From Kiritimatiellales bacterium (lineage in GTDB: Bacteria; Verrucomicrobiota; Kiritimatiellia; Kiritimatiellales; Pontiellaceae), in assembly GCA_030588285.1 (NCBI GenBank), contig JAUUYK010000060.1, forward strand, positions 1 through 6,440: a DNA stretch of 6,440 nucleotides, read 5' to 3'. Each line of letters opens with the position of its first letter. The stretch's first letter is position 1. Under the pieces are notes generated by a model. It had not been told where the DNA came from. It was given only the letters and a program-made list of their open reading frames with translations, and did not search any database. The position numbers and the translations under genes were made by a program. Shown piece by piece: positions 1 to 6,440 of this stretch.

Positions 1-1233
1 CCCTTATTTGTTTATTCAGAAAATGAAATTCGCTCCAAAGTACGCATCGCCAAGCGTGCATTTGAAAAACGGTATCCAAAGGTGAAGTTTGCGTGGTCGT
101 ATAAAACCTGCTATTTGCAGGCCATCTGTTCTATTTTTCACGACGAAGGATCTATCGCCGAGGTCGTTTCTGAATTTGAATACGAAAAGGCGCGAAAATT
201 GGGGGTTCTTGGGCGGGATATTTTGGTGAATGGTCCGTACAAAACCGAATCGCTGTTGCGCCGAGCGGTGGATGAAAACGCCAAGTTACATCTCGATAAT
301 CTTGACGAGTTGTTTGAGCTTGAAGCGATTGCCCGCGAAAAACAAATTACCATCGATGTGGCCATTCGGGTAAATATGGATACGGGGCTGTTGCCTGCGT
401 GGAATAAATTTGGGTTTAACCTGGAAAATGGCGAGGCCATGCAATGCATCCGTCGGATGCGAGCCAATGGGCTGGTTCGTTTGGTGGGGTTGCATTCGCA
501 CATAGGAACCTTTGTGCTTGATCCTCGTTTTTATCAGACGGCCTCTCAGAAGTTGATTGCACTCGGTCGGCAGGCTCAGGAAGAATGTGGTTTCGAAATG
601 GAATATTATGACCTCGGTGGCGGGTTTGCATCGAATAATACCCTGCATGCGCAATACCTGCCCGGCGAGCAGGTGGTGCCGACGTTCGATCAATATGCCG
701 AAGCAATCTGTGGGGTTTTTGTGGCCGAGTTTTCTTCGGCCGGAACGTTGCCTCAGCTTTATCTCGAAACGGGGCGGGCACTGATCGACGAGGCGGGCTA
801 TTTGATTACCTCGATTATTGCCCAAAAACGCGCGGCGGATGGTCGACGCGCGCTGATTGCCGACTGTGGCGTGAATATGCTCTATACCACCACCTGGTAT
901 CGCCTACGCACCTTGCCGGCCAAGCCGGTGACTGCCCCCGTAAGCGATACGGTGCTTTATGGTCCGCTTTGTATGAATATTGATGTGCTCCGTGAAAGCG
1001 TTCCGCTCCCTCCACTCGAACGCGGGGATCAACTGGTGATGCATCCGGTCGGTGCCTACAACGTGGTGCAGTCGATGCAGTTTATTATGTATCGACCGGC
1101 GGTCGTGCTGGTGGCTTCCGACGGGGCCTGTTCGGTGATTCGGGAGAAGGAAAATCTGGAATATGTTGAAGAAATGGAACGGCTTCCAGATCATTTGAAT
1201 CGTAAAAAACTGGCTCAGAGCAACGCGGAATAA
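1..1233 (+). CDS. PLP-dependent amino acid decarboxylase, Orn/DAP/Arg decarboxylase group 2 (5' partial)
   Basis: This is the cytoplasmic alanine-racemase-fold (type III) PLP decarboxylase family, whose members include diaminopimelate and ornithine decarboxylases. The frame is open from base 1 without a start, and translation begins PLFVYSENEIR, a typical near-N-terminal segment, so probably only a few tens of residues are missing; the GTG at 82 is internal. Counting from base 1, Lys35 in SYKT (bases 103-105) is the expected Schiff-base lysine. Other family motifs are HSHIGT (165-170), GGGF (206-209), ETGR (256-259), GPLC with Cys324, Asp328, and GAYN with Tyr353. Oddities: ETGR replaces the usual EPGR, the cysteine is followed by Met instead of Glu/Asp, and DCGVNMLYTTTWY lacks the arginine found at the matching place in diaminopimelate decarboxylases. 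The substrate is therefore unlikely to be diaminopimelate and is unassigned. The stop overlaps the next start, indicating translational coupling. The fold and family are secure; the specificity is not. Confidence 0.9.
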   Translation, partial: PLFVYSENEIRSKVRIAKRAFEKRYPKVKFAWSYKTCYLQAICSIFHDEGSIAEVVSEFEYEKARKLGVLGRDILVNGPYKTESLLRRAVDENAKLHLDNLDELFELEAIAREKQITIDVAIRVNMDTGLLPAWNKFGFNLENGEAMQCIRRMRANGLVRLVGLHSHIGTFVLDPRFYQTASQKLIALGRQAQEECGFEMEYYDLGGGFASNNTLHAQYLPGEQVVPTFDQYAEAICGVFVAEFSSAGTLPQLYLETGRALIDEAGYLITSIIAQKRAADGRRALIADCGVNMLYTTTWYRLRTLPAKPVTAPVSDTVLYGPLCMNIDVLRESVPLPPLERGDQLVMHPVGAYNVVQSMQFIMYRPAVVLVASDGACSVIREKENLEYVEEMERLPDHLNRKKLAQSNAE

Positions 1234-3416
1234 TGACTAAAGCGCTAGATAATTTAAGAAACTGGCTGATGGCGGGGTTTCAGGAGTCGGAATCGGAGGT
1301 TCGTCTGTTTGTCGAATCGATTCTACGAAGCTACGCCATTATCTTTTTTTCGCAAAACCTTCTTCTGGGCGCGGTGCTTTTGGGAGTGACGCTTTTTGCA
1401 CCGTCGTTTGGTTTGCTGGGGCTGGCTGGGCTGATGGTTTGTTATGGCGCTGCCCGCTTGCTTGGCTTTGAACGTTCCAGTATCCAGAGCGGCGTCTATC
1501 TATTTAATTCCTTGCTGGTTTCATTGGCTTTGGCCTATTTGAATAATTTCCAAAAGCTGGAATTTTCGACGTTGTTGATGTTGTTGGTGTCGGCTTCCAT
1601 GATTACGCTATTTGTTTCAGTTGTCATGTTCGATATTTTTGCGCGGCATTACACGTTGCCCGCTTTAAGTTTGCCTTTTGTCGGGGTCGCGTTTGCGCTC
1701 TTTTTTCTGTTTTATTCCTTTAATAGTATGCCGATCACCTCGGAAGCACCGGCCTATATTTTTCCAGAGATTGGCCATTTGCCGGACGGGGTTGTCGGTT
1801 TCTTTCAGTCTCTGGGGGCTATCTTTTTTCTGCCGCATGTCACGGTCGGGGTGGTGGTGTTTATTTGCGTGGCGGCTTGGTCGCGTTTGGCTGTGCTGTA
1901 TGCGGTGGTGGGGTATACCTCCGGCGTGTTGCTGATGAAAGCGCTGGGTATGGATGTGGTCTCTTCCTCGCTGGGTTTTGTGGGGTTTAATTTTATTTTT
2001 TGTGCGATTGCATTGGGGGGTATTTTCTTGGTGCCTTCGCGGGGTTCGTTGTTGATGGTGGTGCTGGGGTCATTCTTCTGCGTGGTCGTGGCTGTGGCCG
2101 TGAAAACTTTTTTGAAATATTTTGGAATTCCGCCGCTTGCGCTCCCGCTCAGTTTAGTCATTTTATTAGTGCTCTATTCGATGAAGTGTCGCACGCGGGT
2201 GACTCATCTGTTTTGTTCTCCGTTTGAACCGGAACGGCCTGAAAGAAATTTCCGCCGGTTTTTTTCCGATACCCGCCGTTTCCCAGACCTTCTACAGCCG
2301 CACCTACATCTTCCCTTTTTTGGAGAGCGTACGGTAACCCAATCGTTCCATGGCAAAGTGACCCATTGCGGTGACTGGGGCGAGGCGTTCGATTTTGAGA
2401 TTCTTGACGAGGCGGGGAATCGGTTTATGCACGAGCCGGTCGATCTGGCGGGTAATCATGTTTTTGATACCCCTGTGCTGGCTCCCTGTAATGGCATGGT
2501 TGTGAATGTGGTGGCCGATGTACGTGATAACGAGATTGGTAAAATGAACTCGGATCGTAATTGGGGCAATGCCATCGTAATTCAGGATGATTTGGGTTAT
2601 TTTGTGAAACTCTGCCACCTGAAAAAAGATTCTATTTTGGTGGTCGAAGGTGTTCGGGTGGCCCAGGGGCAGGTGATTGCTCGCTGTGGAAATACGGGGC
2701 GTTCGCCCGTTCCTCATTTGCACATGCAGGTGCAACGCACGGCTCAGGTGGGCGACAAAACCATTCCGTTCCGCCTCGCGCAGTATTGCACCAAAGTCGG
2801 CGACCGCCTTCAATATCACACCTCCGGGATTCCGGAGAAGGACGCGACGCTTCTGCCTGTCGAGTTTAGCGACCGGATGGCGGCCTGCTTTGAATTTGGC
2901 GAAGCCACGTGGGAATACGATTTTAATGGGCGTTCCGAAACCATTCGGTGCGAGCTCAATTCGCAGGGTGATTATGTGATGACCGCGCCTACGGCTAAAC
3001 TAATTGCGCGAATCAAAGATCGTACCTTTTATACAATTGATTATCAGGGGGGGATCGAAAGCGTGCTGTTCTTTATTCATATCGGACTTTGCCGCGCTCC
3101 CTTTATTTCCGCCGACACCGTGTTCTGGAAGGATCAGGTTGATTTGCGCTCCTTATTGCGCCCCGGTGTGGCGGCAGTGCTTGATTTTGTGGGACCCTTT
3201 GTTGGGTACCCGCTCGCACAGGTAGAGTGTTCTGTCGTGCATAATGAGGCAGGAGGTGTCCGTGTTTGTACGTCGGTAGACTACCCCGTGCCTCGGCGGT
3301 TACTACGGAAGGGGTGTCCAGAAAAAATTGAAATCTCGTTATCAACTGAGGGGATTGATGAGATTCGAGCCTTTGAGGGTGGAGTAAAGGTTTTGATTGA
3401 AAAGAAGGATAAATAA
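1233..3416 (+). CDS. Urea transporter (UT)-family channel fused to M23 metallopeptidase domain
   Basis: This 727-residue inner-membrane protein has three parts. Residues about 33-317 form a hydrophobic two-fold-repeated block matching the urea transporter family. It contains the pore signature LPALSLPF (142-149), a degenerate second copy around GIPPLALPL (298-306), and the paired pore-helix segments near GVYLFNSLLVSLAL (87-100) and GFVGFNFIFCAIALGG (248-263). Residues 318-350 are an Arg-rich linker. Residues about 370-505 match peptidase family M23: zinc ligands His378 and Asp387 (THCG then AFDF), His462 in CHLKKDS, and HLH at 495-497 preceded by GNTGRSPVP. Residues about 545-727 are unassigned. 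UT proteins conduct urea or small amides; M23 enzymes usually cut peptidoglycan cross-links. Family UT proteins are about 300-400 residues, so the rest is a true extension. The start overlaps the upstream stop (TAATG) without a strong Shine-Dalgarno sequence, suggesting coupled translation. Domain calls are firm; the substrate and which side of the membrane the peptidase faces are open. Confidence 0.92.
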   Translation: MTKALDNLRNWLMAGFQESESEVRLFVESILRSYAIIFFSQNLLLGAVLLGVTLFAPSFGLLGLAGLMVCYGAARLLGFERSSIQSGVYLFNSLLVSLALAYLNNFQKLEFSTLLMLLVSASMITLFVSVVMFDIFARHYTLPALSLPFVGVAFALFFLFYSFNSMPITSEAPAYIFPEIGHLPDGVVGFFQSLGAIFFLPHVTVGVVVFICVAAWSRLAVLYAVVGYTSGVLLMKALGMDVVSSSLGFVGFNFIFCAIALGGIFLVPSRGSLLMVVLGSFFCVVVAVAVKTFLKYFGIPPLALPLSLVILLVLYSMKCRTRVTHLFCSPFEPERPERNFRRFFSDTRRFPDLLQPHLHLPFFGERTVTQSFHGKVTHCGDWGEAFDFEILDEAGNRFMHEPVDLAGNHVFDTPVLAPCNGMVVNVVADVRDNEIGKMNSDRNWGNAIVIQDDLGYFVKLCHLKKDSILVVEGVRVAQGQVIARCGNTGRSPVPHLHMQVQRTAQVGDKTIPFRLAQYCTKVGDRLQYHTSGIPEKDATLLPVEFSDRMAACFEFGEATWEYDFNGRSETIRCELNSQGDYVMTAPTAKLIARIKDRTFYTIDYQGGIESVLFFIHIGLCRAPFISADTVFWKDQVDLRSLLRPGVAAVLDFVGPFVGYPLAQVECSVVHNEAGGVRVCTSVDYPVPRRLLRKGCPEKIEISLSTEGIDEIRAFEGGVKVLIEKKDK
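1329..2183 (+). other. UT-type transmembrane channel domain
   Basis: Residues 33-317 of the fusion protein. The segment is almost uninterrupted hydrophobic sequence with few charges and can be split into two homologous halves (about 33-165 and 184-317), as in the UT fold with its five-plus-five helices and two pore helices. The first-half signature has Ser in the position where Thr is usual (LPALSLPF). The second-half copy is more degenerate and ends in LSLV where Pro-Phe is expected, so selectivity may differ from that of a true urea channel. Confidence 0.82.
2340..2747 (+). other. M23 (LytM-like) zinc metallopeptidase domain
   Basis: Residues 370-505 of the fusion protein. All visible family landmarks are present: first-motif His378 and Asp387, the VLAPCNG turn (415-421), NWGNAIVI (443-450), His462, the VAQGQVIARCGNTG strand-turn (475-488) and the HLH zinc/catalytic pair (495-497). 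This suggests an active enzyme, unlike the degenerate LytM domains of division regulators such as EnvC, which lack zinc ligands. Activity and substrate are inferred from the family only. Confidence 0.85.
3401..3408 (+). promoter_or_regulatory. Ribosome binding site that decides the start of the TPR/barrel gene
   Basis: A purine-rich AAAGAAGG lies inside the last codons of the upstream gene, 12 bases before the ATG at 3421. It supports that ATG over the in-frame TTG at 3397, which would add eight charged residues (MKRRINNT) ahead of an otherwise standard signal peptide. Confidence 0.55.
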
Positions 3417-3420
3417 TACG

Positions 3421-4761
3421 ATGAAACGAGTGGTATGCGGAATCAGTGTGTTTTGTTTCTTTTGTGCGGTTCAGGCCGAGCCGTTGCTGGACCGTGGGGC
3501 GTTGGATCGGTTAATGAATGAGGGACAATATGCCCAGGTGGTGGCCACGGTGGCTGCTCAGTATCGCGGGGATGAAAACAGCTGGTTGTTGCCGTATCTC
3601 GGTACGGCCGAGTTTTATCGCGGCAACTATAAAAATGCCATCCATTATTTTAAGTATATTCCCGCTTTTCAGCGTTCGAGAGAGGTGGAATCACTATTGG
3701 CTTGGGCCTACTATTACAGTGGCGATCAGATTGCTGCAAAAAGGGTATTTAGGGCGAACTTACGCAAAAATTCTCAATCGGTGGATGCGCTTTCCGGTAT
3801 TGGCTGGAGTTATTATGCGCAAGGGTTTTATCCTGAAGCAAGGAGCTATTTTCAAAGGGCACTTCAGGTTTCGCCGGGGGATATCCCTACCAAGAAGGGG
3901 TTGGACTACTGCAATGCTTGGATCGCTGTCGGTGATAAATCTGACGAACTAATGGAATGGGATCGACGCTATACGTTGGTGCGCTATTTTGGAACCTATT
4001 CAACCTATGTAGGTGATACCGTAAAGAAAGATGGGCTGGAACACGATTTAATGCTCTCGACGGGGCAGGTGGGCAAGAACTATTTAAACCTGATGCTAAC
4101 CCATGTCAACATTAGCTCACTGGATGGATTTTTTGAATTTAAGCAGTCCGAGATTCGCGCTTCAGGCGGGGTTTATGTGGGGCAATCGCTGTTGTTGCGC
4201 GGGCTGGGGGGCTTTTTTGATCTGGATGATACCCCGCTGGAAGGTGCTCCTGATACCGGAGTCGATGTTACCGCATGGATGGCCGGTGTGGGCGCAGAAA
4301 CGCTGGGTTGGAAGGTGAATCTGTTTGCGGATCTGTATGGGTTTGTAGGCACTGATGCCGGTGTGTATCAAGTGGTTCCTGGTTTGGCGTGGAATCTGTG
4401 GGATGTAAAATTGCGGAGTGCATTGGTGGGGGCGCGCAGTGGTATGACCGGGCAGGATGGCCAGACAACGGCCTATTTCCAGCAATCAGCTCTATGGAGC
4501 CCTACCGTGAATACCTCGCTGTATGGTGGGTTTGGTGTCGGGGAAAGTTATTATGGTCTCCGCACGCCGGGAGGCGTCTTCTATAACCTTCCGGATAAGC
4601 GATTAGTCGATGCGTGGTTGCAATGGTCTATCGACTTTGAGCCATGGGTCTTTTCGGTGGGCGTAAGTTTTGCTCAGTTTGAAACCGCAGCCTTGAGGCA
4701 ATATGAAGCGTATAACACCACGCTTTCGATTGGGCGCAGTTGGGGCAAGGTTCCTCGGTAA
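3421..4761 (+). CDS. Exported TPR-repeat protein with probable C-terminal outer-membrane beta-barrel
   Basis: The protein has 446 residues from the ATG at 3421. A Sec signal peptide is clear: MKR, a hydrophobic core to about residue 16, and a likely cut after VQA at 19/20. Residues about 22-160 are helical repeats of TPR type. The clearest are 52-84 (YLGTAEFYRGNYKNAIHYF), 88-119 (LLAWAYYYSGDQIAAKRVF) and 121-153 (ALSGIGWSYYAQGFYPEARS, then YFQRALQVSPGD). Residues about 183-446 switch to alternating aromatic/hydrophobic strands separated by Gly/Asp turns, about a dozen candidates, ending in TLSIGRSW; this looks like an outer-membrane barrel. The last residue is Arg, not the aromatic residue that often ends such barrels. 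Periplasmic TPRs plus a barrel is an arrangement known from export and surface-polymer proteins. It lies 4 bases after the UT-M23 stop, so it is probably co-transcribed and may be the outer-membrane partner of that protein. I recognise no specific family, and the cargo is unknown. Confidence 0.82.
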   Translation: MKRVVCGISVFCFFCAVQAEPLLDRGALDRLMNEGQYAQVVATVAAQYRGDENSWLLPYLGTAEFYRGNYKNAIHYFKYIPAFQRSREVESLLAWAYYYSGDQIAAKRVFRANLRKNSQSVDALSGIGWSYYAQGFYPEARSYFQRALQVSPGDIPTKKGLDYCNAWIAVGDKSDELMEWDRRYTLVRYFGTYSTYVGDTVKKDGLEHDLMLSTGQVGKNYLNLMLTHVNISSLDGFFEFKQSEIRASGGVYVGQSLLLRGLGGFFDLDDTPLEGAPDTGVDVTAWMAGVGAETLGWKVNLFADLYGFVGTDAGVYQVVPGLAWNLWDVKLRSALVGARSGMTGQDGQTTAYFQQSALWSPTVNTSLYGGFGVGESYYGLRTPGGVFYNLPDKRLVDAWLQWSIDFEPWVFSVGVSFAQFETAALRQYEAYNTTLSIGRSWGKVPR

Positions 4762-4906: not shown

Positions 4907-5368
4907 ATGAAAATTTTAGTGGCGCGAATTCCTGAAGAGGGATCGAATTACGAAGGGAATGACCCCGGGTCCATATTGCAAGTGGACGGGGAAACTTTTA
5001 TTAAAGATCCGAGCGATGTACATTACGCATTATATGCTCAATGTGTTTCGGATGAACTGGTTGTTCGGGGGGTGCTGAGTGTAGATGTGGGTTTGCAGTG
5101 TGCAAGATGTTCGGAATTTTTCTCGACAACCGTAGGGGTATCCGATTTTCTACGCGCTTATCCCGCCCCAAAGGGAACGGATTCGGTGGATATTACCGAG
5201 GATTTGCGGGAAGAATTATTGCTACAAGTTCCGGGATTTCCGGTGTGCAAAGAAGTGTGCAAAGGAATGTGTTCCCAATGCGGGATTGACCTGAATAAGG
5301 GCACCTGTATATGTAAGAAAGAAGAAGGTCCAACCCCGTGGTCGGCGCTGGATGACATTAATTTATAA
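4907..5368 (+). CDS. yceD: YceD/DUF177 family protein, cysteine-rich
   Basis: This 153-residue protein belongs to the family encoded directly upstream of rpmF in many bacteria and implicated in 23S rRNA processing or large-subunit assembly. The family pattern is clear: a central CARC (Cys65, Cys68), the acidic stretch DITEDLREELLLQVPGFPVC (95-114) before the C-terminal motif, and then Cys114, Cys118, Cys122, Cys125, Cys134 and Cys136, which together look like metal-binding clusters. The C-terminus ends in PTPWSALDDINL, matching the usual Pro-x-Trp-x-x-Leu ending. The start at 4907 has a well-placed AGGAG. The next gene begins 20 bases downstream, so co-transcription with rpmF is expected. The symbol is based on family plus position; the exact biochemical role is not shown by the sequence. 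Confidence 0.93.
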   Translation: MKILVARIPEEGSNYEGNDPGSILQVDGETFIKDPSDVHYALYAQCVSDELVVRGVLSVDVGLQCARCSEFFSTTVGVSDFLRAYPAPKGTDSVDITEDLREELLLQVPGFPVCKEVCKGMCSQCGIDLNKGTCICKKEEGPTPWSALDDINL

Positions 5369-5374
5369 GGTATG

Positions 5375-5382
5375 TAAGGAGG
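5375..5382 (+). promoter_or_regulatory. Strong Shine-Dalgarno sequence of rpmF
   Basis: TAAGGAGG is a near-perfect complement to the 16S rRNA 3' end, 6 bases before the ATG at 5389. It is the strongest ribosome binding site in the window, as expected for a highly expressed ribosomal protein, and shows that the host uses canonical Shine-Dalgarno initiation. Confidence 0.85.
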
Positions 5383-5388
5383 ATTGCT

Positions 5389-5577
5389 ATGGCAGTTCCA
5401 AAAAGAAAAACTTCGAAAAGTAGAACCGCGAGTCGTAAAGCTCAGAATATGAAAAAACCTACAGCACGGGCATCTTCTTGCTCGCAATGTGGCGCTCCTG
5501 CATTGTCTCATCACGCTTGTTCTAGTTGTGGCTATTACAACGGACGCCAAGTGTTGACGGTCGCTACTGAAGACTAG
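5389..5577 (+). CDS. rpmF: 50S ribosomal protein L32 (bL32), zinc-ribbon form
   Basis: The 62-residue product has the normal bL32 length. It begins MAVPKRKTSKSRTASRKAQN, the conserved basic N-terminal tail that enters rRNA. A zinc ribbon follows with Cys31, Cys34, Cys44 and Cys47 (CSQC and CSSC), then GYYNGRQVL, the family's typical ending. With all four cysteines present this is the zinc-binding (C+) paralogue type rather than the zinc-independent form induced under zinc starvation in some bacteria. It lies between yceD and plsX, the standard order, and its stop is 4 bases from the plsX start, so the three are probably one operon. Confidence 0.98.
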   Translation: MAVPKRKTSKSRTASRKAQNMKKPTARASSCSQCGAPALSHHACSSCGYYNGRQVLTVATED

Positions 5578-5581
5578 ACCG

Positions 5582-6440
5582 ATGCGTATCTCGATAGATG
5601 CGATGGGGGGCGACTACGCTCCTTCCGAAATCGTTGCCGGCACACTTCAAGCGGCTGAAAAGCTTGAGGGAATAGAAAAACTTTTTCTAGTTGGCGATGA
5701 AGCACGGATTAAGGTTGAACTGGCTAAATATAAAAAAGCAATACCCTCGTGTATTGAAATTGTCCACGCTTCGGAAGTTGTTGAAATGGGGGATTCTCCG
5801 GCGATTGCGATACGCCGGAAAAAAGATTCTTCCATTTCTCGTGCACTTGAGCTGGTCAAGGATGGAAAGGCCGATGCGCTCTTTTCTGCGGGGAATACGG
5901 GGGCTGTTGTTGTGGGGGCCACGCTTAAGCTGCGGACGCTGAAAGGTGTTTCGCGCCCGGCCATTGCAACGATTATGCCGACTCCAAAAAACCCCTTTGT
6001 TCTGCTTGATGCGGGAGCAAATCCAGATAGCACGCCTGAAATGATTCAGCAATATGCGGTGATGGGTAGTATCTATTCTCGCGAAATCCTCGGGGTCGAA
6101 AACCCTTCCGTGGGTCTCTTGAGTATTGGTGAAGAAGCGGCTAAGGGAAATGAAACCACCAAGAAGACCTTTGGTTTGTTGAAAAAAACGAACCTAAACT
6201 TTATTGGTAATGTCGAAAGTCGCGACCTGTATGGCAGCAAGGTTAGTGTTGCGGTATGCGATGGGTTTGTTGGAAACATTGTTTTGAAAACCAGCGAAGC
6301 CGTGGCGAGTATGATTTCGAACTGGCTCAAATCCATGTTCCGTGCAAATCCGCTCCGGATTATCGGCTATCTTTTTTCCCGTGGAATTTTTAAAGAAATG
6401 CGCGCTCATGCTGATCCTTCCAGCTATGGCGGAGCTCCGC
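5582..6440 (+). CDS. plsX: Phosphate acyltransferase PlsX (3' partial)
   Basis: PlsX converts acyl-ACP and phosphate to acyl-phosphate at the cytoplasmic face of the membrane, feeding PlsY for phosphatidic acid synthesis. From the ATG at 5582 the frame stays open to the window edge for 286 codons plus one base. Recognisable segments are MRISIDAMGGDYAPSE at the N-terminus, MGDSPAIAIRRKKDSS (69-84), SAGNTGA (102-108), LDAGANPDS (142-150), SIGEEAAKGNE (181-191), CDGFVGNIVLKTSE (226-239) and the closing SSYGGAP (280-286). Family members run about 330-345 residues, so some 45-60 residues lie beyond the window. No good Shine-Dalgarno precedes the ATG, and it starts 4 bases after the rpmF stop, so it probably relies on coupling to the strongly translated rpmF. 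Downstream, fabH or other fatty acid genes would be usual but cannot be seen. Confidence 0.97.
   Translation, partial: MRISIDAMGGDYAPSEIVAGTLQAAEKLEGIEKLFLVGDEARIKVELAKYKKAIPSCIEIVHASEVVEMGDSPAIAIRRKKDSSISRALELVKDGKADALFSAGNTGAVVVGATLKLRTLKGVSRPAIATIMPTPKNPFVLLDAGANPDSTPEMIQQYAVMGSIYSREILGVENPSVGLLSIGEEAAKGNETTKKTFGLLKKTNLNFIGNVESRDLYGSKVSVAVCDGFVGNIVLKTSEAVASMISNWLKSMFRANPLRIIGYLFSRGIFKEMRAHADPSSYGGAP

Follow-up and report, generated by a model that had tools for sequence, protein, structure and literature searches.

The window analysed here, a 6,440-nucleotide stretch of contig JAUUYK010000060.1 from a Kiritimatiellales bacterium (assembly GCA_030588285.1), encodes a 727-amino-acid protein in which a urea-transporter-type (UT) channel domain is followed by an M23 metallopeptidase domain (Table 1). 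In relatives, this UT-M23 gene belongs to what the sequences support well as an operon, with genes for a PqqD-like protein, an ATP-grasp ligase, a pyridoxal phosphate (PLP)-dependent decarboxylase, and often a TPR/barrel protein. Our tentative reading, to which we would give somewhat less than an even chance, is that UT-M23 is the inner-membrane part of an operon that ligates, decarboxylates, and hydrolyses, with a cytoplasmic M23 domain that does not cut the cell wall and a product that crosses a remodelled UT pore. The names "urea transporter" and wall hydrolase are probably both wrong about function.

A conserved UT-M23 fusion

The fusion occupies a single uninterrupted frame of 727 codons (1233–3416), in which profile searches identified both a UT and an M23 domain. 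The match to PF03253 (E = 1.5e-55, 188.9 bits) spans profile positions 2–289 of 292 and thus both halves of the channel, the 10-transmembrane fold of solved UTs is kept across these halves, and the M23 domain matches both the PF01551 profile and the corresponding fold. These searches bear out an earlier note, made from the sequence alone, which had described a UT-type channel and an M23 peptidase in one frame with intact His378, Asp387, and HLH ligands: all five expected metal or catalytic residues are present. A protein search further returned 429 homologues with E values of 1e-5 or lower, and among the matches listed from these, query included, 119 of 120 have both domains. Because the homologues share this two-domain architecture, a frameshift or assembly artefact could be ruled out. 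The note had also suspected that the fusion might already exist in databases, and it does: where sources name the homologues, they mostly use "urea transporter" or a MepM/NlpD-type label.

The fusion is found in several phyla. A contig scan with a single peptide pattern gave at least 583 confirmed matches, and the best 80 of 583 provided 80 loci, a set that leans towards that motif. By title, most of them come from Bacteroidota, Ignavibacteria, and Chlorobiota, whereas Verrucomicrobiota, Planctomycetes, and Deltaproteobacteria account for some. Viral contigs yielded no relative in one scan with seed patterns taken solely from the window protein, and a virus origin was set aside on that basis. 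A census covered 395 genomes from the phylum to which genome G009 belongs. G009, at the centre of this sample, contains locus L034, is titled Bacteroidetes, and was picked for having the fusion. A UT domain scored over the cut-off in 44 of these genomes, as a long fused frame (at least 535 amino acids) in 33, as a gene split into two overlapping frames in one, and as a standalone UT in 10. Among 387 genomes from the phylum of the Verrucomicrobia bacterium G004, 7 matched the window protein, and one of these 7 has a standalone UT.

A few copies depart from the common form. The split gene (L094:1411–3665), the only such copy in the 34 genomes of the 395-genome sample that have the operon, consists of a UT frame at 1411–2487 and an M23/C-terminal frame at 2484–3665 that overlap by 4 bases, and is either a natural split or a frameshift. 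Downstream of position 3697 in L045, a copy is interrupted in its C-terminal part, leaving frames of 574 and 157 codons. A second UT-like frame of 484 amino acids, with a weak two-piece PF03253 match, lies at about 9940–11390 of the planctomycete locus L001, three frames downstream of UT-M23, and contig C317 of genome G002 has a 468-amino-acid frame with half a UT match.

A pore that differs from urea-conducting transporters

At the positions that distinguish urea-conducting transporters (two filter threonines and a Glu or Gln at site 187), the window protein has Ser146, Ala303, and Ala196. These replacements are general in the fused family: among 104 fused rows, representing 102 distinct genes, Thr130 occurs in 6, Thr294 in 9, Glu or Gln187 in none, and Gln24 in 80. 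Standalone UTs served as a control, with 9 of 11 compared after dropping that of L091 (internal stop) and the one in G633. All nine keep Thr130, Thr294, and Gln24, and carry Glu (six) or Gln (three) at site 187. The Sm set (L84, T130, L247, and T294) and the site numbering agree with the available portion of PMC4357013 and, according to the accessible part of PMC12171576, changing both filter threonines of mouse UT-A to valine abolishes or weakens transport of urea, water, and ammonia. Against the urea transporter model TIGR03441, the window protein scored 109.6 bits, far below the NCBI curated cut-off of 274.6. Other pore-lining positions are strongly conserved across the 120-row alignment (F39 in 118, N92 in 119, L95 in 117, and N253 in 120). 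Judged from the replaced filter residues, the UT pore may be remodelled for a solute other than urea.

Genome content offered no support for urea use. Urease alpha had no match in 48 of 50 genomes, drawn from 50 of the 80 loci, and only marginal partial matches (24 and 22.8 bits) in the other two; urea carboxylase was not searched. The earlier view of the UT part as a urea-type channel therefore probably does not hold, given the replaced filter residues, the lack of a urease-alpha match in these 48 genomes, and operon partners that are not urea genes.

Predicted cytoplasmic placement of the M23 domain

An excess of Lys and Arg on the side of the N- and C-termini, where the M23 domain lies, was observed in 120 of 120 homologues. 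With the termini left out, the excess persists in 108, alongside 10 ties and 2 reversals, and its sign agrees with that in all 9 standalone UTs. Loop borders for this count were set by hand from model helices and the Pa, T1a–5a order in the consulted part of PMC4357013, which also places the T5a–Pb loop on the outer side; the available text of PMC5700210 puts both termini of human UT-B inside.

Cysteine content provided a second line of evidence. Across 13 genomes, fused M23 domains contain 1.51% Cys and none of the 13 is free of it, whereas the share in ordinary M23 domains from these genomes is 0.36% and 19 of 25 have none. Exported Bacteroidota proteins tend to avoid cysteine. The genome-matched control had lowered the figure for fused domains from 2.10% to 1.51%, and L146 gave no M23 match in this comparison. 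Because charge bias, known UT topology, and cysteine content all point the same way, the M23 and C-terminal domains are indicated to be cytoplasmic.

Two cysteines of the fused domain stand out individually: Cys461 (2613–2615), beside the catalytic His462, is present in 65 of 120 homologues, and Cys485 (2685–2687) in 91 of 120, with a possible extra metal or redox role.

Operon structure and strict co-occurrence

The operon was found by clustering open reading frames (ORFs) around the 80 loci, of which L069 contributed no fusion frame. Fifty loci extend 4.5 kb or more upstream; among these, the decarboxylase was found in 49, the ATP-grasp ligase in 49, the PqqD-like protein in 48 (by a profile built from its cluster), and all three in 48, with median intergenic gaps of −10, 17, and 22 nt. 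Proteins of two relatives match PF05402 (PqqD) at 36.6 and 31.6 bits, over the cut-off of 23.4. Downstream, 55 of the 80 loci have a barrel protein cluster and 64 a TPR protein, while in L001, L002, L003, L009, L050, and L077 the TPR gene lies upstream instead. L010 has no operon neighbours, and the decarboxylase of its genome lies on a different contig.

Across the 395 genomes, the decarboxylase and ATP-grasp genes occur in exactly the 34 with a fused (33) or split (1) UT-M23, and in none of the 10 with a standalone UT only. The cut-offs were of our choosing (E up to 1e-60 for the decarboxylase and up to 1e-40 for the ATP-grasp enzyme), and the weakest matches accepted were 1.0e-141 and 2.2e-91, respectively.

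Of the partner genes, the window itself displays just two, those for the decarboxylase and the TPR/barrel protein (Table 1), and its genome would carry the PqqD-like and ATP-grasp genes beyond the left edge. The decarboxylase stop codon shares one base with the fusion start codon, and this enzyme clusters with 76 proteins from relatives' loci. The protein at 3421..4761 has, by eye, a signal-peptide-like N-terminus and a barrel, and occupies the position of the outer-membrane barrel/TPR genes of relatives without co-clustering with them.

Table 1 Features of the window and conservation of individual residues.
Feature	Position	Strand	Notes
PLP-dependent decarboxylase, 5' end cut by window, 410 amino acids present, motif GPLCMNID	1..1233	+	PF02784 E 2e-30, PF00278 E 4.2e-12
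UT-M23 fusion protein, 727 amino acids	1233..3416	+	
UT domain, residues 28–315, both inverted halves complete	1314..2177	+	
Ile36, site of dvUT Gln24	1338..1340	+	120-row alignment: I 47, Q 35, V 14
Ser146, site of dvUT filter Thr130	1668..1670	+	Ser in 117/120
Ala196, site of dvUT Glu187	1818..1820	+	Ala 101/120, Glu/Gln 0/120
Ala303, site of dvUT filter Thr294	2139..2141	+	120 rows: Ala 95, Ser 24, Thr 1
Basic linker past last membrane helix, residues 317–360	2181..2312	+	Mean K+R 7.22 vs D+E 3.79, 120-row alignment
M23 domain, residues about 361–517	2313..2783	+	
His378, predicted zinc ligand	2364..2366	+	120/120
Asp387, predicted zinc ligand	2391..2393	+	120/120
His462, predicted catalytic His	2616..2618	+	118/120, two gaps
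His495-Leu496-His497, HxH motif	2715..2723	+	Each His 119/120, one gap
C-terminal domain, residues 518–727, weakly LolA/YmcC-like half-barrel	2784..3413	+	
TPR protein, probable outer-membrane barrel	3421..4761	+	Starts 4 bases past fusion stop; TPR_2 E 2.3e-11

Several further observations concern the surroundings of the operon. An AraC-type regulator lies upstream in 19 of the 80 loci (e.g., L026:3709–4299), with an N-terminus that by eye resembles a metal-binding HMA domain, a possible sign of regulation by metal. The operon is also present on contig L003, labelled Akkermansia muciniphila; at a listed 6.5 Mb, the genome is larger than is usual for that species, so that either labelling or binning may be at fault. 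PADLOC, run on 6 operon proteins, returned nothing beyond a generic TPR match (E = 3.7e-4), and an anti-phage defence system was dropped as a candidate. In the window, the operon is followed at 4907–6439 by yceD, rpmF, and plsX (the last identified by eye), an ordinary housekeeping cluster.

A leader-bearing decarboxylase and a proposed pathway

A [YF]xxPx[ILV] motif, mostly followed by G-x-x-N-K-F-G, precedes the enzyme fold in 72 of 72 decarboxylases with an intact N-terminus. Five sequences cut by contig or window ends were set aside, including the window's own, whose leader lies outside the window. Narrower patterns recovered fewer sequences (61 of 76 for YxxP with Tyr only, 31 of 76 for a longer pattern), and the full count was reached by allowing Phe or Trp and taking the stretch ahead of the fold. 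As a background, 52 of the 826 other ORFs at these loci contain the motif, a figure based on their first 60 residues only and hence not strictly comparable. According to the accessible part of PMC13381572, discrete lasso RREs bind [Y/W]xxPx[L/V/I/F/A], and the decarboxylase leader fits the motif of discrete lasso-peptide RREs as presented there and in the portion of PMC12710340 at hand. Because this leader motif occurs together with PqqD-like proteins that score over the Pfam cut-off, the decarboxylase probably docks on the RRE-like protein through its leader. A LysW-like role of the PqqD-like protein as an amino-group carrier was dropped, since conservation does not extend to the C-terminus of this protein (judged on 30 of 54 aligned sequences).

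The solved structure nearest to the L062 decarboxylase is FigC, an N-citrylornithine decarboxylase (7kh2, E = 3.4e-64), with BtrK, an enzyme that decarboxylates carrier-bound glutamate, matching at 7.4e-37. The catalytic Cys loop reads GPLCMN in 71 of 77 operon decarboxylases, the other 6 giving no match to the search pattern, compared to GPSCMQ in FigC, Cys-Glu in two diaminopimelate decarboxylases, and Cys-Thr in BtrK. Scores against the NCBI model for FslC were far below its cut-off of 500 bits both for the 5'-cut window enzyme (207) and for that of L062 (247). As described in the available portion of PMC7857480, FigC, SbnH, AcsE, MccE, and BtrK take conjugated amino acids as their substrates.

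Because the operon decarboxylase resembles such enzymes, we propose a pathway of ligation, decarboxylation, and M23-mediated release, and we infer the chemistry of its first three steps, its transport direction, and its product as follows. The ATP-grasp enzyme would form an amide on an amino acid, and the decarboxylase, tethered to the RRE-like protein through its leader, would then act on the resulting conjugate. The M23 zinc site may next hydrolyse an amide, so that the product is released at the inner pore mouth, from where it would pass through the remodelled, non-urea UT pore and leave by way of the outer-membrane partner. More speculatively, and with slightly less confidence than we place in the role of UT-M23 itself, the operon may represent a system for biosynthesis and export that has not been described before. 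Its RRE-like protein would recruit the decarboxylase by its leader, in place of a precursor peptide, and a cytoplasm-facing M23 domain would pass the freed product directly into a UT-type pore refitted for another solute.

Alternative explanations

A different topology would change this picture. The M23 and C-terminal domains could be periplasmic, if the UT were inverted or the charge pattern misjudged, and could there process a product after its export or breach the wall on behalf of the outer-membrane partner. Export is the usual fate of M23 enzymes, the operon includes TPR and barrel-like partners, and the weakly LolA/YmcC/RseB-like fold of the C-terminal domain points to the periplasm and weighs against the placement that we favour. 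However, the charge bias is uniform among homologues and has the same sign as in standalone UTs, cysteine is above the level of ordinary M23 domains from the same genomes, and the termini of known UTs are intracellular in the source portions consulted. We regard a periplasmic M23 as unlikely. Slightly less likely again is a non-conducting UT domain that serves as a membrane anchor or sensor, comparable to a solved sensor Amt protein, and holds or regulates a cytoplasmic M23-like hydrolase. The full 10-transmembrane fold is retained, and the conservation of the pore-lining residues F39, N92, L95, and N253 speaks for a working pore.

The earlier note had coupled small-solute passage through the UT-type channel to peptidoglycan cleavage, a reading taken here to place the M23 domain in the periplasm. 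Its two domains and intact M23 residues stand, yet we consider the coupling itself improbable: charge bias, known UT topology, and cysteines suggest a cytoplasmic M23 domain, the filter residues are altered, urease alpha is at best marginal in the genomes searched, and the operon partners have no link to wall or urea. The note's suggestion that the channel domain serves as a sensor may still apply. Overall, the earlier reading of the fusion is partly supported. It is also conceivable, with very low probability, that the decarboxylase leader is a true substrate of the type found in ribosomally synthesized and post-translationally modified peptide (RiPP) pathways, with the ATP-grasp enzyme modifying the N-terminal tail and the M23 domain releasing a small peptide. 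The G-x-x-N-K-F-G sequence that mostly follows the RRE motif, the discrete PqqD-like partner, and the tight spacing of the operon genes (median gaps −10 and 17 nt among the three), which leaves little space for a separate precursor gene, would fit such a scheme, but a catalytic enzyme would be an unusual carrier of a core peptide, and the tail peptide may exceed a UT-size pore. No further widely conserved frame of at least 70 amino acids that could be a precursor gene was found at the loci, shorter frames not having been searched, and no lasso cyclase or lasso-type protease was matched among the scanned conserved neighbour clusters.

Significance and relation to known systems

Within titles and abstract openings, and with most subscription papers outside the search, we found no literature on a UT-M23 fusion. 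With the same restriction on subscription papers, none was found joining three or more of PqqD, ATP-grasp, M23, and diaminopimelate decarboxylase, and a search for PqqD, ATP-grasp, and decarboxylase surfaced only a lanthipeptide engineering review, going by the part of it that was available. A search within the same bounds found no paper on cysteine in exported proteins. The operon deserves attention as a membrane-bound, leader-organised pathway whose channel seemingly has its own inward-facing hydrolase. If the topology holds, the wall is not the target of this M23 enzyme, which is mounted on a UT pore serving a new solute; if the role of the leader holds, RRE domains organise enzymes besides peptide precursors. 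The strict co-occurrence in 34 of 395 genomes makes gene removal in culturable Bacteroidota an easy test.

Compared to known UTs (dvUT, UT-A, and UT-B), the window protein differs by its fusion to M23 and a third domain and by its operon context, and the fused family by Thr130 to Ser, Thr294 to Ala or Ser, and Glu187 to Ala changes. With M23 metallopeptidases such as LytM, ShyA, Csd1/Csd2, DipM, and EnpA, the fusion has in common the fold and all expected metal or catalytic residues, but it is predicted on the cytoplasmic side, sits on a multi-spanning channel, and has biosynthetic partners. Among the alanine-racemase-fold decarboxylases of conjugated substrates (FigC/FslC, SbnH, AcsE, MccE, and BtrK), with nearness judged from PDB matches alone, the operon enzyme shares the Cys-Met loop of FigC; relative to FigC/BtrK-type systems, an ATP-grasp enzyme replaces the NIS synthetase and a PqqD-like protein the acyl carrier, and a membrane M23 partner is added. 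Finally, the operon resembles lasso-type RRE RiPP pathways in having a discrete PqqD-like protein adjoining a [YF]xxPx[ILV] leader, and differs from them in that this leader is carried by a decarboxylase instead of a short precursor peptide.

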